NCBI GenBank assembly: GCA_030603245.1
Contig: JAUVYE010000006.1
Coordinates: forward strand, 1-34,967
DNA: 34,967 bases
From: a bacterium
GTDB taxonomy: Bacteria > Patescibacteriota > Minisyncoccia > Minisyncoccales > DG-74-3
Direction of reading: 5' to 3'
Each line of letters begins with the position of its first letter. The first letter of the stretch is position 1. The translations under genes and the position numbers were made by a program. The notes beneath the pieces are model-generated. The model was given only the letters and a program-made list of their open reading frames with translations. It did no database searches and was not told where the DNA came from. Of this stretch, positions 2,384 to 23,092 are shown in pieces.

Positions 2384-4132
2384 TTATTTTTTCGATTCTT
2401 GTTCTATTTTAACTTTTTTTAGAAATTTAGACAATTTAATTATTCCTATGTCTCCCTTGCCTCTTTTTCTTACTCTAACTGATTGACTTTTCATTTCTTT
2501 ATCACCAACAACTAAGAGATAGGGGATTTTCTGAATTTCTCCCTCCCTTATCTTTTTTGAAACAGTTTCGGTTTCATCTTTTACTATTGCTCTGAAGCTT
2601 TGCTCCTTTAAACTTTTGGCAACCTTTTTTGCAAAGCTTCTATGTTTTGAACCCACTGGAATAATCATGAATTGGATGGGTGATAACCACAAAGGAAAAG
2701 CTCCTTCATAATGTTCAATCAGCACTCCAATAAATCTTTCTAAAGAACCCAATAGTGCTCGGTGAAGCATAATTGGTCTCTTCTTTTTCCCTTTGTTATC
2801 AATATAATTGAGATTAAATTTTTCTGGGAAATTGAAATCCACCTGAATAGTGGTTAATTGCCACTTTCTACCAATAGCATCTGAAACTAAAAAATCAATT
2901 TTAGGTCCATAAAATACTGCTTCTCCTATATAACGAGTATAAGAAAGTTTTTTGCTTTTTAAAGCGCTTTCTAAGGCTTTTTCAGCCAATTTCCAATCCT
3001 TATCTGAACCCAAATACTCTTTCTTTTTCTTAGAGTCCCTAATTGAAAGTGAAATCTCAAACTCTTTAAAACCAAAGCTATTTAAAATATATTTGGTTAA
3101 GTCAATCATGTCCACTATTTCAGAATGAAGCTGTTCTGGGGTGCAGAAAATATGAGCATCATCTTGAGTGAAACTCCTTACCCTGATTAGACCGTGCAGG
3201 GTTCCTGATCTCTCATACCTATACACAGTTCCCATTTCAGTGAGTCTTAAAGGTAGGTTTTTATATGATCTTATTTTTGAATCATAGATTTTAACATGAC
3301 CAGGACAATTCATTGGTTTGAGCTGATAATCATCTTTTTCTTCTTTAGCAATTTCTTTCATACGCATTGGAGGGAACATACTTTCTTTATAGAAATCAGT
3401 ATGACCAGATCTTTTCCATAATTTTAGGTTTGCAATATGGGGAGTAGAAACCAATTCATACCCTCTGTTTAAATATGTGTTTAGGGCAAAATCCATAACA
3501 ATTTTTCTGAGAATTGCTCCTTTGGGAAGCCATAAAGGCAATCCTTGCCCAAATTCTTCATCAATCATAAAAAGTTCTAATTTTTTGCCTAATTTACGAT
3601 GATCTCTTTTCTCTGCCTCAGCTTCTTTCTTAAGAAATTCATCCAATTCTTTCTTAGAACTAAAAGCAAGAGCATAAACTCTTTGAAGCATTTGGTTTTT
3701 TTCACTTCCCTTCCAATAAGCTCCAGCAATTTTAGTTAGTTTAAAAACATCTGATGGTAAATCTTTGGTAGATTTAACATGAGGTCCTTTACATAAGTCT
3801 ATAAAATCCCCAGTTTCATACACATGAATCTTACCACCTTTCATTTCCTTAATTAATTCCAGCTTGTATGGTTGACCTTTGAATAGTTTTTGAGCCTCTT
3901 TTTTGGATATCTTTCTTTTTTTGAAAGCCAGACCTTTTTTAATAAGTTGTTTTGCTTTTTTCTCAATCTTTGGCAAATCTTCAGGAGTTAAGCTCCTTTT
4001 CAATTCAAAATCATAATAAAAGCCATTATCAATGGCTGGTCCAATACCAAACTTTGCTTTTGGAAAAAGCTCTTGAACTGCTGCTGCCATAATATGAGAC
4101 AGCGAATGTCTAATAGTTTCTAATTTAGCCAT
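2384..4132 (-). CDS. thrS: Threonyl-tRNA synthetase lacking the N-terminal TGS domain
   Basis: Editing domain 'RHSLSHIMAAAVQELFP', class II motifs and zinc ligands (MNCPGH, DDAHIF, LHRALLGS); starts directly at the editing domain. Confidence 0.95.
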   Translation of the reverse strand: MAKLETIRHSLSHIMAAAVQELFPKAKFGIGPAIDNGFYYDFELKRSLTPEDLPKIEKKAKQLIKKGLAFKKRKISKKEAQKLFKGQPYKLELIKEMKGGKIHVYETGDFIDLCKGPHVKSTKDLPSDVFKLTKIAGAYWKGSEKNQMLQRVYALAFSSKKELDEFLKKEAEAEKRDHRKLGKKLELFMIDEEFGQGLPLWLPKGAILRKIVMDFALNTYLNRGYELVSTPHIANLKLWKRSGHTDFYKESMFPPMRMKEIAKEEKDDYQLKPMNCPGHVKIYDSKIRSYKNLPLRLTEMGTVYRYERSGTLHGLIRVRSFTQDDAHIFCTPEQLHSEIVDMIDLTKYILNSFGFKEFEISLSIRDSKKKKEYLGSDKDWKLAEKALESALKSKKLSYTRYIGEAVFYGPKIDFLVSDAIGRKWQLTTIQVDFNFPEKFNLNYIDNKGKKKRPIMLHRALLGSLERFIGVLIEHYEGAFPLWLSPIQFMIIPVGSKHRSFAKKVAKSLKEQSFRAIVKDETETVSKKIREGEIQKIPYLLVVGDKEMKSQSVRVRKRGKGDIGIIKLSKFLKKVKIEQESKK

Positions 4133-8967: not shown

Positions 8968-9390
8968 ATGTCTTCTAGGCACTTATCGAGATCAATAGCA
9001 ATGCAAAGTTTATACGAATGGGATTTCTTTGACCAAAAAGAAGATTTAAAAAAAATAGTTGAGAAAAATATTAAAGAATTTGGACCAGGATTAGAAAATA
9101 ATGATGGATTTGTCTGGCAATTAGTAACTGGTGTGATTCAATATCTTAAAGAAATTAATAGTATTATTGAAAAAGCTGCTCCTCAGTGGCCCATAGATCA
9201 GATTAATATAGTTGACAGAAACATTCTGAGACTTGGCCTTTATGAACTATTGTTTGGAGATAAAGAAGCTGTTCCTCCCAAAGTGGCTATTAATGAGGCG
9301 ATTGAATTAGCTAAGGGTTTTGGAGGAGAAAGTTCAGGAAGATTCATTAATGGTGTTTTAGGAACAGTTTTTAAAGAAATAGAGAAATAA
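8968..9390 (+). CDS. nusB: Transcription antitermination protein NusB
   Basis: '[18 protein letters not shown]', '[15 protein letters not shown]', '[28 protein letters not shown]'. Confidence 0.95.
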
Positions 9391-10082
9391 TGAAAAAAGA
9401 TTTTTCACCACTTGAAAAGAAAACAGGATTAAAATTTAAAAACAAAGATTTATTGGTGCAATCCTTTTGTCACCGTTCTTTTTTAAATGAAAATCCAGAT
9501 TTTGATTTAAATCATAACGAAAGATTAGAGTTTCTGGGAGATGCTGTTTTAGAATTAGTTGTAACTGAATATTTATTTCAGCAATATCCAAGTGAGTCAG
9601 AGGGACAATTAACTAATTGGAGAGCTTCTTTGGTTAATGCTAAGCAACTTTCTAAAATAGCTGGAGAATTAAATTTTAATAATTTTTTATTGCTCTCAAA
9701 AGGAGAAACAAAAGAAACAGGAAAAGCCAGGCAATATATTTTAGCTAATGCTCTTGAATCTTTTATAGGAGCAGCTTATCTTGACTTGGGATATAAAAAG
9801 TGTAAAGAATTTATTAAAAAACATCTGATAAAAGATTTGCCTCATATAATTGAAGCTGGATTGTATAAAGATTCTAAATCTCTTTTTCAAGAACAGTCAC
9901 AGGAAAAGGTTGGAATTACTCCTATTTACAAAGTTTCAAAAGAATGGGGCCCAGACCATGTTAAACATTTTATTATCGGAGTTTATTTGGAAAAAGAATT
10001 AGTAGCTGAAGGCGAAGGGTCTTCAAAACAAGAGGCAGAAGAAGATGCTGCTAAAAAGGCACTGGAAATAAAAGGCTGGTAA
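9390..10082 (+). CDS. rnc: Ribonuclease III
   Basis: 'HNERLEFLGDAVLELVV' catalytic signature, 'ALESFIGAAYLDLG', C-terminal dsRBD. Confidence 0.97.
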   Translation: MKKDFSPLEKKTGLKFKNKDLLVQSFCHRSFLNENPDFDLNHNERLEFLGDAVLELVVTEYLFQQYPSESEGQLTNWRASLVNAKQLSKIAGELNFNNFLLLSKGETKETGKARQYILANALESFIGAAYLDLGYKKCKEFIKKHLIKDLPHIIEAGLYKDSKSLFQEQSQEKVGITPIYKVSKEWGPDHVKHFIIGVYLEKELVAEGEGSSKQEAEEDAAKKALEIKGW

Positions 10083-18433: not shown

Positions 18434-19006
18434 ATGGCAGAAGAAATTAAAAAAGAAGAGATTCAAGAAACTCCTCAAGAACAAGTTCAAGGACAACCCA
18501 AACCAGAAATAGGTAAAATTAAAATCACTAAGCCCAAAATAGACATGGCCGTGAAACCTAAAGAAAAGGAAGAGAAACCGTCCGTCGCTAAAACTTTGGA
18601 GGGCAAACCTATTAAGGTTCCTGCAAAATTTAAAAAGCTGGTTGAAGAAATAGGAAAGATGAGTGTTTTAGACTTGGCTGAACTGGTTAAGCTTTTGGAA
18701 AAGAAATTCGGAGTTTCAGCCGTAGCTCCTGTGGCAGTCACAGCAGATCTCGTTTCCGCTGAAGCTGCAACGGGTAAGGAAGCAAAAAGTAAATTCAATA
18801 TTGAATTAACTGCAATTGGAGAGAAAAAGATAGATGTTATTAAAGTGGTAAGAGATATTACTCAAAAAGGATTAAAAGATTCAAAAGATTTAGTTGATGC
18901 CGTTGCTTCTGGTGCTCAGGTTGTGAAAGAAAACGTAAAGAAAGAGGAGGCAGAAGAGCTAAAAAAGAAATTTGAAGCTGCTGGTGCCACAGTAGAATTG
19001 AAGTAA
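18434..19006 (+). CDS. rplL: 50S ribosomal protein L7/L12 with an N-terminal extension of roughly 55-60 aa
   Basis: 'IGKMSVLDLAELVKLLEKKFGVSA' and 'KIDVIKVVRDITQKGLKDSKDLVDAVASGAQVVKENVKKEEAEELKKKFEAAGATVELK'. Confidence 0.95.
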   Translation: MAEEIKKEEIQETPQEQVQGQPKPEIGKIKITKPKIDMAVKPKEKEEKPSVAKTLEGKPIKVPAKFKKLVEEIGKMSVLDLAELVKLLEKKFGVSAVAPVAVTADLVSAEAATGKEAKSKFNIELTAIGEKKIDVIKVVRDITQKGLKDSKDLVDAVASGAQVVKENVKKEEAEELKKKFEAAGATVELK

Positions 19007-19022
19007 AGTTTTAATGAAAAGC

Positions 19023-19051
19023 AAAAGGGGGCTCTTAAGAGCCCCCTTTTT
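19023..19051. terminator. Bidirectional terminator between convergent rplL and the DHH-like gene
   Basis: AAAAGGGGGCTCTTAAGAGCCCCCTTTTT, near-perfect palindrome with A/T tracts on both sides. Confidence 0.9.
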
Positions 19052-19057
19052 GATTGT

Positions 19058-20365
19058 TTAATGTAATTTTTTGAAATAAAAAAAAGAGAGGTTGGAAGAT
19101 TTATTTTTTTGTGTTTTTCTTTTGTAGTTACATTTAGCCATTAGCCAGGGAAACAGACTACAGGATGGCCCGACACAAGTTTCTCCTTCACAGTCTTTTG
19201 GGAAAAATTCAGTATCAAGTGTAATAGAGGCAACTCTAATAATGGTGTCGATTTCGATGTCAATTGGTGGTACTGATGACCTTGTTAGTGTTCCCCAAAA
19301 AATCATTTGATATTCTCCGACATGATAATAAAGGGGATCTGTGCCCGGTATTGTGCCACCTCGTTTGAGTTCCTGCCAGGACTTGGGGATTTCTTTGTTT
19401 CTTTGTTTAAGTATTTCTGCTCGAAGTCCAGCAGCTACGTCTGCCAGACTTTTATTTCTGCGATTACAAGATAGTTGGAAAGTTCCAGTCTTTGGTTGTA
19501 TCTGTAATATATACAGCATTATTCCTTTTTGTACTTGGCTCCTGGTGTAATGTGTGAACTTAACATTGTCTGTGGTACCGATGATTAATATCGTGTTCTC
19601 GCTGAATTTCATTTTTTGTGCTTCATCGAAAGCCTTTTGCGCTTCCAGGAATAGACGTCGATCTGATTCAACAGCTCTTATAATCATCGTTATCCATTCT
19701 TTAGTTTTTTCCGGTCCATTAATTATTAAGTTAATGGTTGCCGAATAAACAATGTTCATTGTGTCTTCATGGGCGTTGTGCATCCTATCAAGCCACCCAG
19801 TAAGCCTGTCTTTTACTATAAATCCATTGTTTGTTTCAAGGAATTTCTGAACGACTGAAGCAAAAAAATCTTTTCCTTTTGTCCAGTCTATTTGTTCGAG
19901 ATCTACCGCATAGTGAGCGTCAGCAATCATCCACGTCCAAGCTTGTATTTGTTGATCAGAATATATTGAGTGCATCAACTTGATTATCAACGAGATGTTC
20001 ATTGGGTCTTTGATAGGATGGAAATCGGATCTTGATGCCCATCTGGATAATGTGAAACTCTTTTCGTCGGTGAGCCCTAAGTATACGTCCACATAGCTAC
20101 TAGCAGTTTTTCCTGGATGATCTACGTGAGGATGGTGATCAAACACCAAAACGTTTTGGTGTGAATCATTAGTTACATTTTCTGGAGAAGTGTCCACGAA
20201 TATAACATTTTTTCGAGGTACAGTTGTATTGTCTCCATTCCAGTAGATAATTTCAGCTTCATTTATGCCTGGAATTTTACCCCCATCACAATGCGTTAAT
20301 TTGTACATGGCCATTAGACCATCTAAATCAGGCTTTGTGTGGGTCACAATTTCTGGTACAGTCAA
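19058..20365 (-). CDS. DHH-family-like phosphoesterase with Cys-rich C-terminal tail; TTG start
   Basis: DHH-like motifs 'VTHTKPDLDG', 'VIFVDTSP', 'VLVFDHHPHVDHPG'; C-terminal C-x4-C-x4-C-x8-C; SD GGAGAG 9 nt upstream of TTG. Confidence 0.7.
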   Translation of the reverse strand: MTVPEIVTHTKPDLDGLMAMYKLTHCDGGKIPGINEAEIIYWNGDNTTVPRKNVIFVDTSPENVTNDSHQNVLVFDHHPHVDHPGKTASSYVDVYLGLTDEKSFTLSRWASRSDFHPIKDPMNISLIIKLMHSIYSDQQIQAWTWMIADAHYAVDLEQIDWTKGKDFFASVVQKFLETNNGFIVKDRLTGWLDRMHNAHEDTMNIVYSATINLIINGPEKTKEWITMIIRAVESDRRLFLEAQKAFDEAQKMKFSENTILIIGTTDNVKFTHYTRSQVQKGIMLYILQIQPKTGTFQLSCNRRNKSLADVAAGLRAEILKQRNKEIPKSWQELKRGGTIPGTDPLYYHVGEYQMIFWGTLTRSSVPPIDIEIDTIIRVASITLDTEFFPKDCEGETCVGPSCSLFPWLMAKCNYKRKTQKNKSSNLSFFYFKKLH

Positions 20366-20374
20366 TTTTATTTT

Positions 20375-20435
20375 CTCTCCGAATAAGTAAATTATTTACA
20401 TTAGTTATATATAAACAATTTACTTACTCGGAAAG
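20375..20435 (-). promoter_or_regulatory. 27-bp stem / 7-nt loop in the leader of the DHH-like gene, containing its SD
   Basis: Minus-strand RNA CUUUCCGAGUAAGUAAAUUGUUUAUAU-AUAACUA-AUGUAAAUAAUUUACUUAUUCGGAGAG; every position pairs (4 G.U). Confidence 0.8.
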
Positions 20436-20494
20436 TCTTCCTCTCTTTTATAGGTCTTTTATTAAAATGTTAAGAGCTACTTTATTGTAGCTAA

Positions 20495-20523
20495 ATTATA
20501 ACACCTCATCTTGATTTTGTCAA
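20495..20523 (-). promoter_or_regulatory. Perfect-consensus sigma70 promoter for the DHH-like gene
   Basis: Minus strand TTGACA-AAATCAAGATGAGGTGT-TATAAT (17-nt spacer). Confidence 0.9.
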
Positions 20524-20533
20524 GCGTTTTGGG

Positions 20534-22627
20534 TTAAAACTGTATTTTATAAAGCTTCAAACTATTTAAAAGATAAATAGTTTTTCCGTTAGTTGATACA
20601 GAGAAATCCAAAAGATTATCAAATTTTTCACTCTGGAATTGTTTGATAACTTCGTCCGATTTATTAATAATGATTATTCTGTTTTGAGCTGGTTCTAAAA
20701 TATAAAGATAGGGAAGAACAGTATTAGTAAAAATCTTAGACAGATTTTCAGCATAAGGAAAAAGGTTTGAACCTAAGGTTTCTCGAAATATCCCTGTTGA
20801 GTATCTACTAATAGAATCTTTATTCAGGGTCCAAATTGAACCATCAATCGATAAAGAATTAGACTGAGTGGGTTTTGGAGTTTGATCGTTTAGCCATAAC
20901 TCTGCAAAGCCCCATGTTAAATCTTCAATATAAGGATATTTTACTATTTGACCTGCTTTTTTATCTAAAAAGTAAAGGTTTGATTTAAAAATAGCAAAGT
21001 CATTAAAATCAAAATTTGGATATGGGGTTTCAAGAAAAAAGACTTGGTCAAACTGGTCGTTTTTGAAACTAATTATTTTATTTGGTTTTGAAAAAAACAA
21101 AATTGAATCTTCCCAAAGACTTGCTGAATTAAATTCTTGGGTAGATTGTATAATTTTTCCCTCATTGCTCTCGTTCAATTTTAAAATATTTTTACTATAA
21201 GGGCTAAAGAAATAAATATTTTTCTGATAAGCTATCATTTTTTGAGGGACAAATTCTCCTATTTTAAACTCAAACAAAACTTCGGGTTGTTTAATCTCTT
21301 CTAATTTATTAAATTGATAAAGCTTTTCTAATATTTTTTCTTTTAAAGAAATAACTTGATTATTAAAATCTTTAGATAGACTGGGGGCGATTTTAACCAT
21401 AGGACTAATTTCTTCCCAACTTTCTCTTAAGAGAAGTTGAGCCTGTTTTAAAGCTTCAGGAGATTCTAAAATTAACAAACCTTCAGCTAAATCAATCTTT
21501 TCTTCAATCTCGGATATTTGAATTTGATATTCTTTTAATTGTTTTTCTGTTTGTTTTTGAAAGATCAAAGAGCCTAAAAACAAAACTAAAACCAAGCTCA
21601 AAATCAAAATTGTATTTTTGTGCTTAACAAAAATTTTAATTCTTTTTTTAAATTTTTTGATGGAAACGAGATAACTCCTTATATTAAAAGAAATTCTTGG
21701 TTTTGGAAAAGATATTTTGGGAATAGTAAGTTTAGCTAATTTTTTAAATCTCAATTTCTGTTTTTCTGGCTTTTCGATTGGTTTCTTTGCTCTTTTTGGT
21801 AATTCTATTTTAGGTAAATTAATCTTAGGAATCTTAGGAACACGGATTTTCTTAAAAGCATTCAAAACTGGATTCAATAGAGAAACAAGAGCTTTTTTAA
21901 AAGAAAAATCTCTGGTTTTTTCTCGTCTTACAATAGTTGTTTTCTTGCGTTCTTGTGTCTTTTCTCTGGAAAGAATTAATAAACAAATACCAGAAAGCTC
22001 TTCAGCTTTTTTAATCTTGCCATTTAAAAGTTCTACCAATCTTTTTTCTTTTAAAAAAGGTTCTTTAGCAATTTCATTTAAAATAGCTTGTTTTTCAAAA
22101 AACTCAGCAATTTCTTCGCTCAAAATTAAAAATATATCATCTTCAACCAGTTTGCCAGAAACAATATTTAAAAATACTTTGAGAGGATATGGTTCAATGT
22201 CTTGAAACTTTACTTTTTTATCAATATCAACTATTTTTCCATTTCTGATTAAAAATATTTTTAAATTACCTACTTTTGAAAAATTAAACTCTGATTGTTT
22301 GATCGAAAGAGTAACAAAACTTAGATTTCCTAACCAACCAGTATTTCCTCTTTGAATTAAGTCTTCTAAAAAACGATTAGCGCTTTTTAGACTTTCTTTG
22401 AGCGACTTTTCAGGAGAACGAACTCCTGGAGTATAATATCTATCTTTGATTTTTTTTGATAATTTGTCTAAAAAGCTAAGATCTTGAGGCAGAATGTTTT
22501 TTAAAAATCCAACCATATACAAACTTCCTACTCTTTTTTCATAAATATTTTCTGGTTCATAACAAAAACTCTGAAAAACCACATCAGGTTTTAGTTTTGG
22601 GTTAAAATAAAACTCAAAAATCTTCAT
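20534..22627 (-). CDS. Membrane protein with PP2C-like N-terminal domain, single TM and propeller-like C-terminal domain
   Basis: N-terminal 'GNLSFVTLSIKQSEFNFSKVGNLKIFLIRNGKI' (PP2C-like by eye), basic Pro-rich linker, TM 'TILILSLVLVLFLGSLIF', C-terminal repeats such as 'IWTLNKDSISRYSTG' and 'IYLLNSLKLYKIQF'. Confidence 0.55.
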   Translation of the reverse strand: MKIFEFYFNPKLKPDVVFQSFCYEPENIYEKRVGSLYMVGFLKNILPQDLSFLDKLSKKIKDRYYTPGVRSPEKSLKESLKSANRFLEDLIQRGNTGWLGNLSFVTLSIKQSEFNFSKVGNLKIFLIRNGKIVDIDKKVKFQDIEPYPLKVFLNIVSGKLVEDDIFLILSEEIAEFFEKQAILNEIAKEPFLKEKRLVELLNGKIKKAEELSGICLLILSREKTQERKKTTIVRREKTRDFSFKKALVSLLNPVLNAFKKIRVPKIPKINLPKIELPKRAKKPIEKPEKQKLRFKKLAKLTIPKISFPKPRISFNIRSYLVSIKKFKKRIKIFVKHKNTILILSLVLVLFLGSLIFQKQTEKQLKEYQIQISEIEEKIDLAEGLLILESPEALKQAQLLLRESWEEISPMVKIAPSLSKDFNNQVISLKEKILEKLYQFNKLEEIKQPEVLFEFKIGEFVPQKMIAYQKNIYFFSPYSKNILKLNESNEGKIIQSTQEFNSASLWEDSILFFSKPNKIISFKNDQFDQVFFLETPYPNFDFNDFAIFKSNLYFLDKKAGQIVKYPYIEDLTWGFAELWLNDQTPKPTQSNSLSIDGSIWTLNKDSISRYSTGIFRETLGSNLFPYAENLSKIFTNTVLPYLYILEPAQNRIIIINKSDEVIKQFQSEKFDNLLDFSVSTNGKTIYLLNSLKLYKIQF

Positions 22628-22688
22628 GGTATCATTTTTAATTTTACCCCTTTTCTAATAAAAATAAAACTGTTAAACTAAATTAAAA

Positions 22689-22760
22689 GGACGGTTAGCT
22701 CAGTGGCAGAGCATTGCATTCACATTGCAGGGGTCACAGGTTCAAATCCTGTACCGTCCA
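22689..22760 (+). tRNA. tRNA-Val (anticodon CAC)
   Basis: Acceptor GGACGGT/ACCGTCC, anticodon stem-loop TTGCA-TTCACAT-TGCAG, T arm CAGG-TTCAAAT-CCTG. Confidence 0.93.
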
Positions 22761-22765
22761 CTCCT

Positions 22766-23092
22766 ATGAAAAAAGCTTTTGACGAACAATTATACAAAAG
22801 AGTGTCAATTAATAATTTAATTCTTTTTGTTATTTATTTAATAGTTCTTAATGATACAAAATGTAGTTTTCAAGCATTGGTTAAAAAATGTTTTAACTTG
22901 TTTCCAAAGACTTTTGCTTTATCTGGTAATTCTAAATGGCCTGATACTCGTAAATTAGATAGACCATTAAGAACACTTAGAGATAAAAAATTAATTTCAG
23001 GAGATCCACAAACTACATTTTCTTTGACCAAAAAGGGCAAGAAAACAGCTTTACAGATTGCTAAAATATTTACTCAAAGAAAATTATTATGA
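22766..23092 (+). CDS. Hypothetical protein, possibly winged-helix
   Basis: ATG 5 nt after tRNA-Val; 'RPLRTLRDKKLISGDPQTTFSLTKKGKKTALQIA' resembles a wHTH wing. ORF-track start 22703 lies in the tRNA. Confidence 0.6.
   Translation: MKKAFDEQLYKRVSINNLILFVIYLIVLNDTKCSFQALVKKCFNLFPKTFALSGNSKWPDTRKLDRPLRTLRDKKLISGDPQTTFSLTKKGKKTALQIAKIFTQRKLL

Follow-up and report, generated by a model that had tools for sequence, protein, structure and literature searches.

Most work on the boxA element outside rRNA operons concerns gammaproteobacteria and lambdoid phages, and in phage lambda the boxB is a short hairpin of 5 bp with a 5-nt loop that is bound by N. In bacterial mRNA leaders, boxA has been described for suhB and other genes, with the consensus GYTCTTTAANA (Baniulyte et al. 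2017, PMC5725501). Gammaproteobacterial genomes carried 0 to 7 boxA instances each when boxA was required within 50 bp of a start; the suhB boxA represses translation and then promotes Rho termination, and the boxA of rRNA prevents Rho termination (PMC5725501). In the LoaP/dfn system, a leader hairpin is needed by a specialised antitermination or elongation factor (PMC12691694). Here we describe a Patescibacterial leader in which a long hairpin follows a boxA-like site. This hairpin is one copy of a previously uncatalogued leader module consisting of a promoter, boxA, a purine run and a long hairpin with a conserved core.

The window, that is, the whole stretch of DNA analyzed, covers positions 1 to 34,967 of the forward strand of JAUVYE010000006.1 (assembly GCA_030603245.1), from a host of the order Minisyncoccales, class Minisyncoccia. 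The original prediction described a 27-pair hairpin without mismatch, containing four G·U wobbles, in the leader of a DHH-like gene. Reading and folding of the minus strand from 20435 to 20375 confirmed this structure (27 pairs, a 7-nt loop, four G·U, zero mismatches), which was also the top inverted repeat in a search of the window. As predicted, GGAGAG forms the final six nucleotides of the 3' arm and lies 9 nt ahead of the TTG at 20365. Folding favored the sense strand: the 124-nt leader reached a minimum free energy (MFE) of -35.9 kcal/mol (z = -7.9; 0 of 200 shuffles equaled it), compared with only -20.8 kcal/mol (z = -2.6) for the same region on the opposite strand. The promoter is the sole 12/12 sigma-70 site within 19000-23000, and its predicted transcription start site (TSS) at about 20488 lies upstream of the hairpin, not downstream of 20435, so that the whole hairpin is inside the predicted transcript. 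The boxA-like site, the purine run and the membership of the hairpin in a repeated family were all missed at that stage. The features are listed in Table 1.

Table 1. Positions of the leader elements, the led gene and related features in the window
Feature	Position	Strand	Basis
nusB, factor required by the boxA model	8968..9390	+	Pfam PF01029 at 8986-9369, E 4.6e-35
RNase III-like gene (rnc)	9390..10082	+	Translation read by eye, not family search
12-pair stem between the convergent rplL-like and DHH-like genes; probable shared terminator	19023..19050	Both strands reported	T-rich tail better on +
DHH-superfamily phosphoesterase-like gene, TTG start, Cys-rich C-terminal part	19058..20365	-	Pfam DHH 20.8 bits, under the 28.1 cut-off
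GGAGAG, possible Shine-Dalgarno sequence within the 3' arm	20375..20380	-	Direct reading; mean unpaired probability 0.009 at 37 C
Hairpin 3' arm; inner part 20401-20389 contains conserved core AUGUAAAUAAUUU	20375..20401	-	Fold and alignment
Hairpin loop AUAACUA	20402..20408	-	Fold
Hairpin 5' arm; outer part covaries, inner part 20421-20409 contains conserved core AAAUUGUUUAU	20409..20435	-	Fold and alignment
Purine run AAAAGAGAGGAAGA in the boxA-hairpin interval	20436..20449	-	Direct reading
boxA-like site UAGCUCUUAACAU (candidate NusB/S10 site by resemblance)	20467..20479	-	10/13 vs best family consensus
Sigma-70 promoter TTGACA-17-TATAAT with TG ahead of the -10; predicted TSS about 20488	20495..20523	-	12/12 consensus

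We investigated the leaders of homologous DHH genes and found homologous hairpins in which compensatory changes have occurred. Of the six closest DHH family members found, the window gene counted, five carry long leader hairpins. The hairpins of the window, L004, L005 and L008 align across a common core, in which 12 of 30 pairs have changed on both sides, while the leader of L002 has boxA, the purine run and its position as in the window together with a different stem. A covariance model built from the DHH-leader hairpins (R1) was run on 247 genomes of the order and matched in 32 of them, as many as 8 times in a single genome, and the genes that follow the matches are unrelated. These genomes contained more than 50 distinct copies. 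In an alignment of 52 distinct hairpins, 92% of cells pair and 22 of 26 pairs have changed on both sides. The covariation score was 0.623; shuffling gave 0.253 (0/500), and sliding gave no more than 0.147.

Stems across the family are near-perfect and comprise 22-30 pairs. In the 52-hairpin alignment, the outer stem is free in sequence but pairs, whereas the inner stem is conserved and keeps recurrent wobbles (U19·G50 in 23/52, G21·U48 in 40/52 and U26·G43 in 38/52). Counting on the sense strand of four hairpins with a fixed structure gave 15 G·U against 4 A·C; MFE folds of 55 hairpins gave 211 against 40, a ratio that is supportive only, since MFE favors G·U. Because of the compensatory changes, with which the G·U counts agree, selection appears to act on the sense RNA, and this part of the original prediction is strongly supported. 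The covariation suggests that the structured RNA family is almost certainly real. As a separate observation, three leaders (L004, L005 and L087) have a second small stem past the hairpin with an AGACC loop and paired stem changes (GAUGA-AGACC-UCAU vs GGUAA-AGACC-UUACC).

A DNA-level palindrome, such as a mobile-element end or a recombination site whose RNA appearance is accidental, would fit the position of the copies ahead of accessory genes and the composition of the DHH gene, whose GC3 of 0.344 was the highest among the 14 window genes checked (others 0.155-0.332). However, the sense strand has more G·U than A·C, the hairpins keep a fixed orientation and distance behind promoter and boxA, and the outer stems vary between copies, all of which speaks against it, as does the sequence search of the host genome, in which the 61-nt window hairpin had no second sequence copy. 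We consider this reading extremely unlikely.

To describe the wider distribution, we used a refined hairpin model (R2), of which boxA is not a part. Among genomes sampled from the class it matched in 16 of 387, and among those from the phylum in 10 of 384, with the host genome included each time; it gave no match to the differing stem of L002. The host genome has four copies: that of the window, C5:43326-43386, C16:16382-16436 and C16:17377-17430. At the curated gathering score, no Rfam family covered the window leader or the elements in 17 further loci; a further Rfam comparison gave below-threshold matches only, and no paper naming a boxA-hairpin element was found among open-licence literature. 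rRNA leaders were rejected as a source of the hairpin after R2 gave no convincing match at any of 9 rRNA loci from the order.

Nine of the new model matches, most of them outside the class, are probably false and have no convincing boxA. Any long hairpin gains some score from a model of this kind, and therefore matches without boxA are untrustworthy and may be generic long hairpins. Six hits were left out for want of a clear boxA or gene (L106, L110, L111, L113, L137 and L123:2811), and L112 was also left out despite its boxA-like CAGTTCTTTTACA. Four of these loci (L106, L110, L111 and L113), from other genomes of the order, have model-scoring hairpins with no clear downstream gene, possibly a non-coding version and possibly chance.

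Most hairpins have a UAGUUCUUUGAAAA-like sequence upstream. Among the copies outside the R2 training set, 16 of 31 reached at least 11/13 matches to TGTTCTTTGAAAA, which we take to be the rrn boxA of B. subtilis. None of 61 control windows reached at least 11/13 (placed 140-210 nt upstream, 0/30 at ≥10/13, and downstream, 0/31), and shuffles did so at 11/13 in 0.8% of cases. The gap between boxA and hairpin has a median of 20 nt, with the middle half at 16-24 nt. A promoter matching at least 10/12 was present just upstream of boxA in 35 of 77 copies compared with 7 of 75 control windows; this count and the start-codon counts below exclude loci with no clear boxA (L189, L192-L195, L197-L199 and L178), and both are not independent of boxA. 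The window site UAGCUCUUAACAU is a weaker match than most copies, and it fits the gammaproteobacterial GYTCTTTAANA but for one U fewer (PMC5725501). With boxA assigned through sequence resemblance, the window leader would count as a boxA-containing mRNA leader, more weakly than the family does.

Several arrangements of these elements were observed, and some copies lie within strings of genes. At L121 (G019:C8), four successive cistrons within 2 kb each have boxA, purines and hairpin, and a near-consensus promoter precedes only the first; in the later copies, a CTTTTTTTCGAGCTC...GAGCTGGAAAAAG-type stem takes the place of a promoter upstream of boxA. At L179 (G000:C5:43326), a GGGAGG-TTTTTT terminator-like stem leads straight into the boxA AGTTCTTTCACAA, and the led genes have metG-like and tatD-like neighbors on either side. 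In the host genome, the RNase P RNA gene has a boxA-hairpin copy on each side (L186, G000:C16), and no ordinary start codon could be assigned to the gene behind the second copy. A subfamily ahead of secreted-looking proteins with amidase/CHAP or NlpC/P60 domains (L092, L100, L125 and L128) has TAGAACTTTTACA as boxA in some members. The 5' arm is repeated further downstream (e.g. TTGGATAATCGTTGAATG), and pairing of this repeat with the 3' arm would be a possible alternative fold.

Purine runs lie between boxA and hairpin in most copies. A folded hairpin could bridge such a run to a start codon right after the stem, so that the run itself serves as the Shine-Dalgarno (SD) sequence. A C16 copy of the host genome, with purines GGGGAAGGAGGAAATCT before the hairpin and ATG immediately after it, has this layout, and L121 (2 copies), L088, L101, L122 and L131 look similar. 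However, the run is also found where a good SD sits downstream, the folded spacing in the window copy is long and the anti-SD core is missing in the order (see below), which makes this bridging role improbable.

We further analyzed SD sequences and start codons. Only 2 of 31 window genes, one of them the DHH-like gene, match AAGGAGGTGA over at least 4 nt near the start, and the SD of this gene is thus as unusual in the window as had been claimed. Across loci, an SD of at least 4 nt precedes 23 of 29 led genes compared with 33 of 139 other genes in the same loci. A gene could be assigned to 73 copies, based on heuristic start-codon assignments; of these, 48 have the SD downstream of the hairpin, 18 have it overlapping the 3' arm and 3 have it only before the hairpin. 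Several of the 3'-arm cases, GGTGA among them, are probably incidental. The distance from hairpin to start ranges from -2 to 121 nt in these copies, in contrast to the tight gap between boxA and hairpin.

These data bear on the idea of a translational switch, in which the hairpin keeps GGAGAG hidden and is opened by a ligand, a protein, a small RNA or cleavage. The SD is fully paired, with a predicted opening cost of about 7 kcal/mol at 37 C, and DHH-gene leaders with differing stem sequences (the window, L002 and L093/L008) each have an SD of the GGAG type within the 3' arm and a TTG start behind it. Sequestering is therefore geometrically real in these leaders, for the window copy as originally predicted, but it does not extend to L084, L086 and most of the family: the SD lies downstream in 48 of 73 copies and the distance to the start is loose, and thus occlusion of the SD is not the shared function of the element. 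In addition, an SD may matter little where CCUCC is not seen at the 16S 3' end. Such a switch appears unlikely as the main role. An RNA thermometer, one of the functions first proposed, is disfavored because the predicted stem is too stable: the predicted SD unpaired probability goes from 0.002 at 20 C through 0.009 (37 C) to 0.056 at 55 C.

The anti-SD core CCUCC was absent from the 16S 3' ends of the host genome and seven others of the order (L149 3810-3850 for the host, and L152, L153, L154, L156, L158, L160 and L162). These tails read GGAUUAAAUCAUUUC, GGAUCACUUCAUUU, GGAUCAUUUCAUUU and similar, two of them with possible partial wobble pairing to some SDs, and the absence of the core is in keeping with window genes being almost devoid of SDs. 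A boxA-like TTTCTTTGAAAAAT is located directly 3' of the host 16S gene, and boxA-like sites ahead of 16S genes across the order are weak and variable. The host 16S gene is also split by an insertion of about 0.9 kb (L149, about 2905-3770) with a LAGLIDADG-type ORF (LIDGEGSF) and an Rfam match to group II intron D1-D4.

The concentration of canonical SDs on led genes in genomes whose 16S tails lack CCUCC is a puzzle. Together with the GC3 of the DHH gene, it suggests that the led genes may be laterally acquired accessory genes. One speculative extension is that the module acts as a portable expression signal for such genes, with canonical SDs kept where the 16S rRNA lost its anti-SD core and with boxA/S10 or the hairpin core recruiting the ribosome or a specialised elongation complex. 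We regard this as a long shot; if true, it would constitute a dedicated expression channel apart from the SD-less housekeeping genes.

The protein encoded behind the window leader belongs to the DHH phosphoesterase superfamily, judging from predicted fold and H/D motifs and despite its Pfam score below the cut-off. The AlphaFold model (pLDDT 84.8, pTM 0.81) had its top PDB fold matches among DHH-family enzymes, such as PAP phosphatase, RecJ-Cdc45, PggH and NrnA, and H9, D15, D76, H78 and D114 are invariant across 12 DHH homologues. The family has a large insertion and a C-terminal Cys-rich motif, and DEH replaces DHH in some members. In single-sequence searches, the protein proved rare, being found in 12 of 196 genomes of the order and in 0 of the other three genomes of the host's family. 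With a single-protein query, no homologues were detected by peptide patterns in GTDB contigs and IMG/VR or by tblastn in phages and plasmids.

The other led genes are diverse. A Pfam scan of 30 led proteins other than DHH placed only five above the curated cut-off (PGF-CTERM, amidase/CHAP, NlpC/P60, quinolinate phosphoribosyltransferase-like and DapA), with a DUF1385-like protein just under it. By eye, many led proteins resemble small proteins that are membrane-bound or secreted, and many led genes are single short genes. With respect to a viral link, ten led proteins gave weak matches only in PHROGs, and a phage collection yielded only a 50-base match.

The length of the stems raises another possibility, namely that the duplex is cut by RNase III or protects the 5' end of the mRNA, as in the leaders of E. 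coli pnp and rnc, with boxA aiding co-transcriptional folding as in pre-rRNA. The DHH-fold, nuclease-like protein of the window recalls the autocontrol of pnp. The near-perfect stems have a suitable duplex length for a possible RNase III substrate, an RNase III-like gene lies in the window, and the single near-consensus promoter before the four module-bearing cistrons of L121 is expected if a polycistronic RNA is cut apart. However, to our knowledge RNase III needs no conserved apical sequence with recurrent wobbles, yet the apical core is conserved, and most led genes are not recognizable nucleases. Processing or 5'-end stability as the principal function is therefore, in our view, quite unlikely.

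The reading that we prefer over a one-gene ribosome-site switch is that boxA and hairpin together form an RNA signal resembling nut sites and rrn leaders, which we consider somewhat more likely than not. In the leader, a sigma-70 promoter is followed by boxA, a stretch of about 20 nt with a purine run at its end, and the 22-30-pair hairpin, whose outer stem may be any paired sequence and whose apical core GAAUUGUUUAUC ... GGUAGAUAGUUC is conserved and rich in recurrent U·G/G·U. The module heads separate accessory genes, several per genome and mostly without recognized identity. The boxA of the nascent leader would be bound by NusB-S10, loading the Nus complex on RNA polymerase; the hairpin core may be bound by a further putative factor, as the boxB or dfn hairpin is; and the loaded complex would then alter elongation, Rho sensitivity or translation of the downstream gene.

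We favor the loading of a Nus complex because boxA and a conserved upper stem occur with tight mutual spacing, loose spacing to the start and ahead of many genes. Covariation, the sense-strand bias, the boxA neighbor, promoters, repeated occurrence, the presence of nusB in the genome and the published suhB and LoaP/dfn precedents were counted for this reading; the weak window boxA and the weak, variable boxA-like sites in the rrn leaders of the order count against it. On balance, we lean towards an action of boxA and Nus factors on the module. That the effect is antitermination in particular is a more tentative suggestion, to which we give less than an even chance: processive antitermination gains little where led genes are single and short, which counts against it. 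By analogy, the precedents would permit either sign of effect. In the window copy, the hairpin buries the only SD-like sequence near the start. With GGAGAG hidden in this way, the DHH gene may be controlled at translation as well, and its translation probably hinges on whether the hairpin is bound, is cut or stays folded.

That a covarying RNA family missing from Rfam occurs several times per genome points to a control system shared by the led genes. Patescibacteria are a huge and nearly uncultured group in which gene regulation is almost unknown. If the interpretation is true, a set of boxA and hairpin leaders would extend Nus-factor regulation to this group, and the conserved hairpin core could serve as a handle for finding an RNA-binding partner.

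Compared with known systems, the module differs from suhB-type boxA leaders, for which no hairpin is mentioned (PMC5725501), in that the Patescibacterial copies have a covarying hairpin about 20 nt past boxA and lead genes mostly without recognized identity. The likeness to the lambda nut sites lies in a promoter-proximal boxA, an RNA hairpin with a conserved apical part close behind it at a short, regular distance, and several sites per genome. However, a short hairpin of the boxB type was not found, the module hairpins having 22-30 pairs with the conserved part in the upper stem, and many led genes are single accessory genes. The resemblance is therefore a suggestion that the module may work like a nut site, and we do not class it as one. 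The LoaP/dfn system offers a model for the hairpin half of the module, although dfn is a UNCG-type hairpin ahead of long biosynthetic operons and differs in sequence, size and gene context (PMC12691694). Leaders of rRNA operons likewise have boxA close to the 5' end, and the RNA behind it folds into a long duplex of the RNase III type, but rrn processing stems join distant arms. Finally, the E. coli pnp/rnc leaders share a long hairpin just ahead of the start codon, and the window gene is also DHH-fold and nuclease-like. We know of no boxA in the definitions of those leaders, and the module differs from them in its conserved core and its distribution across multiple genes.
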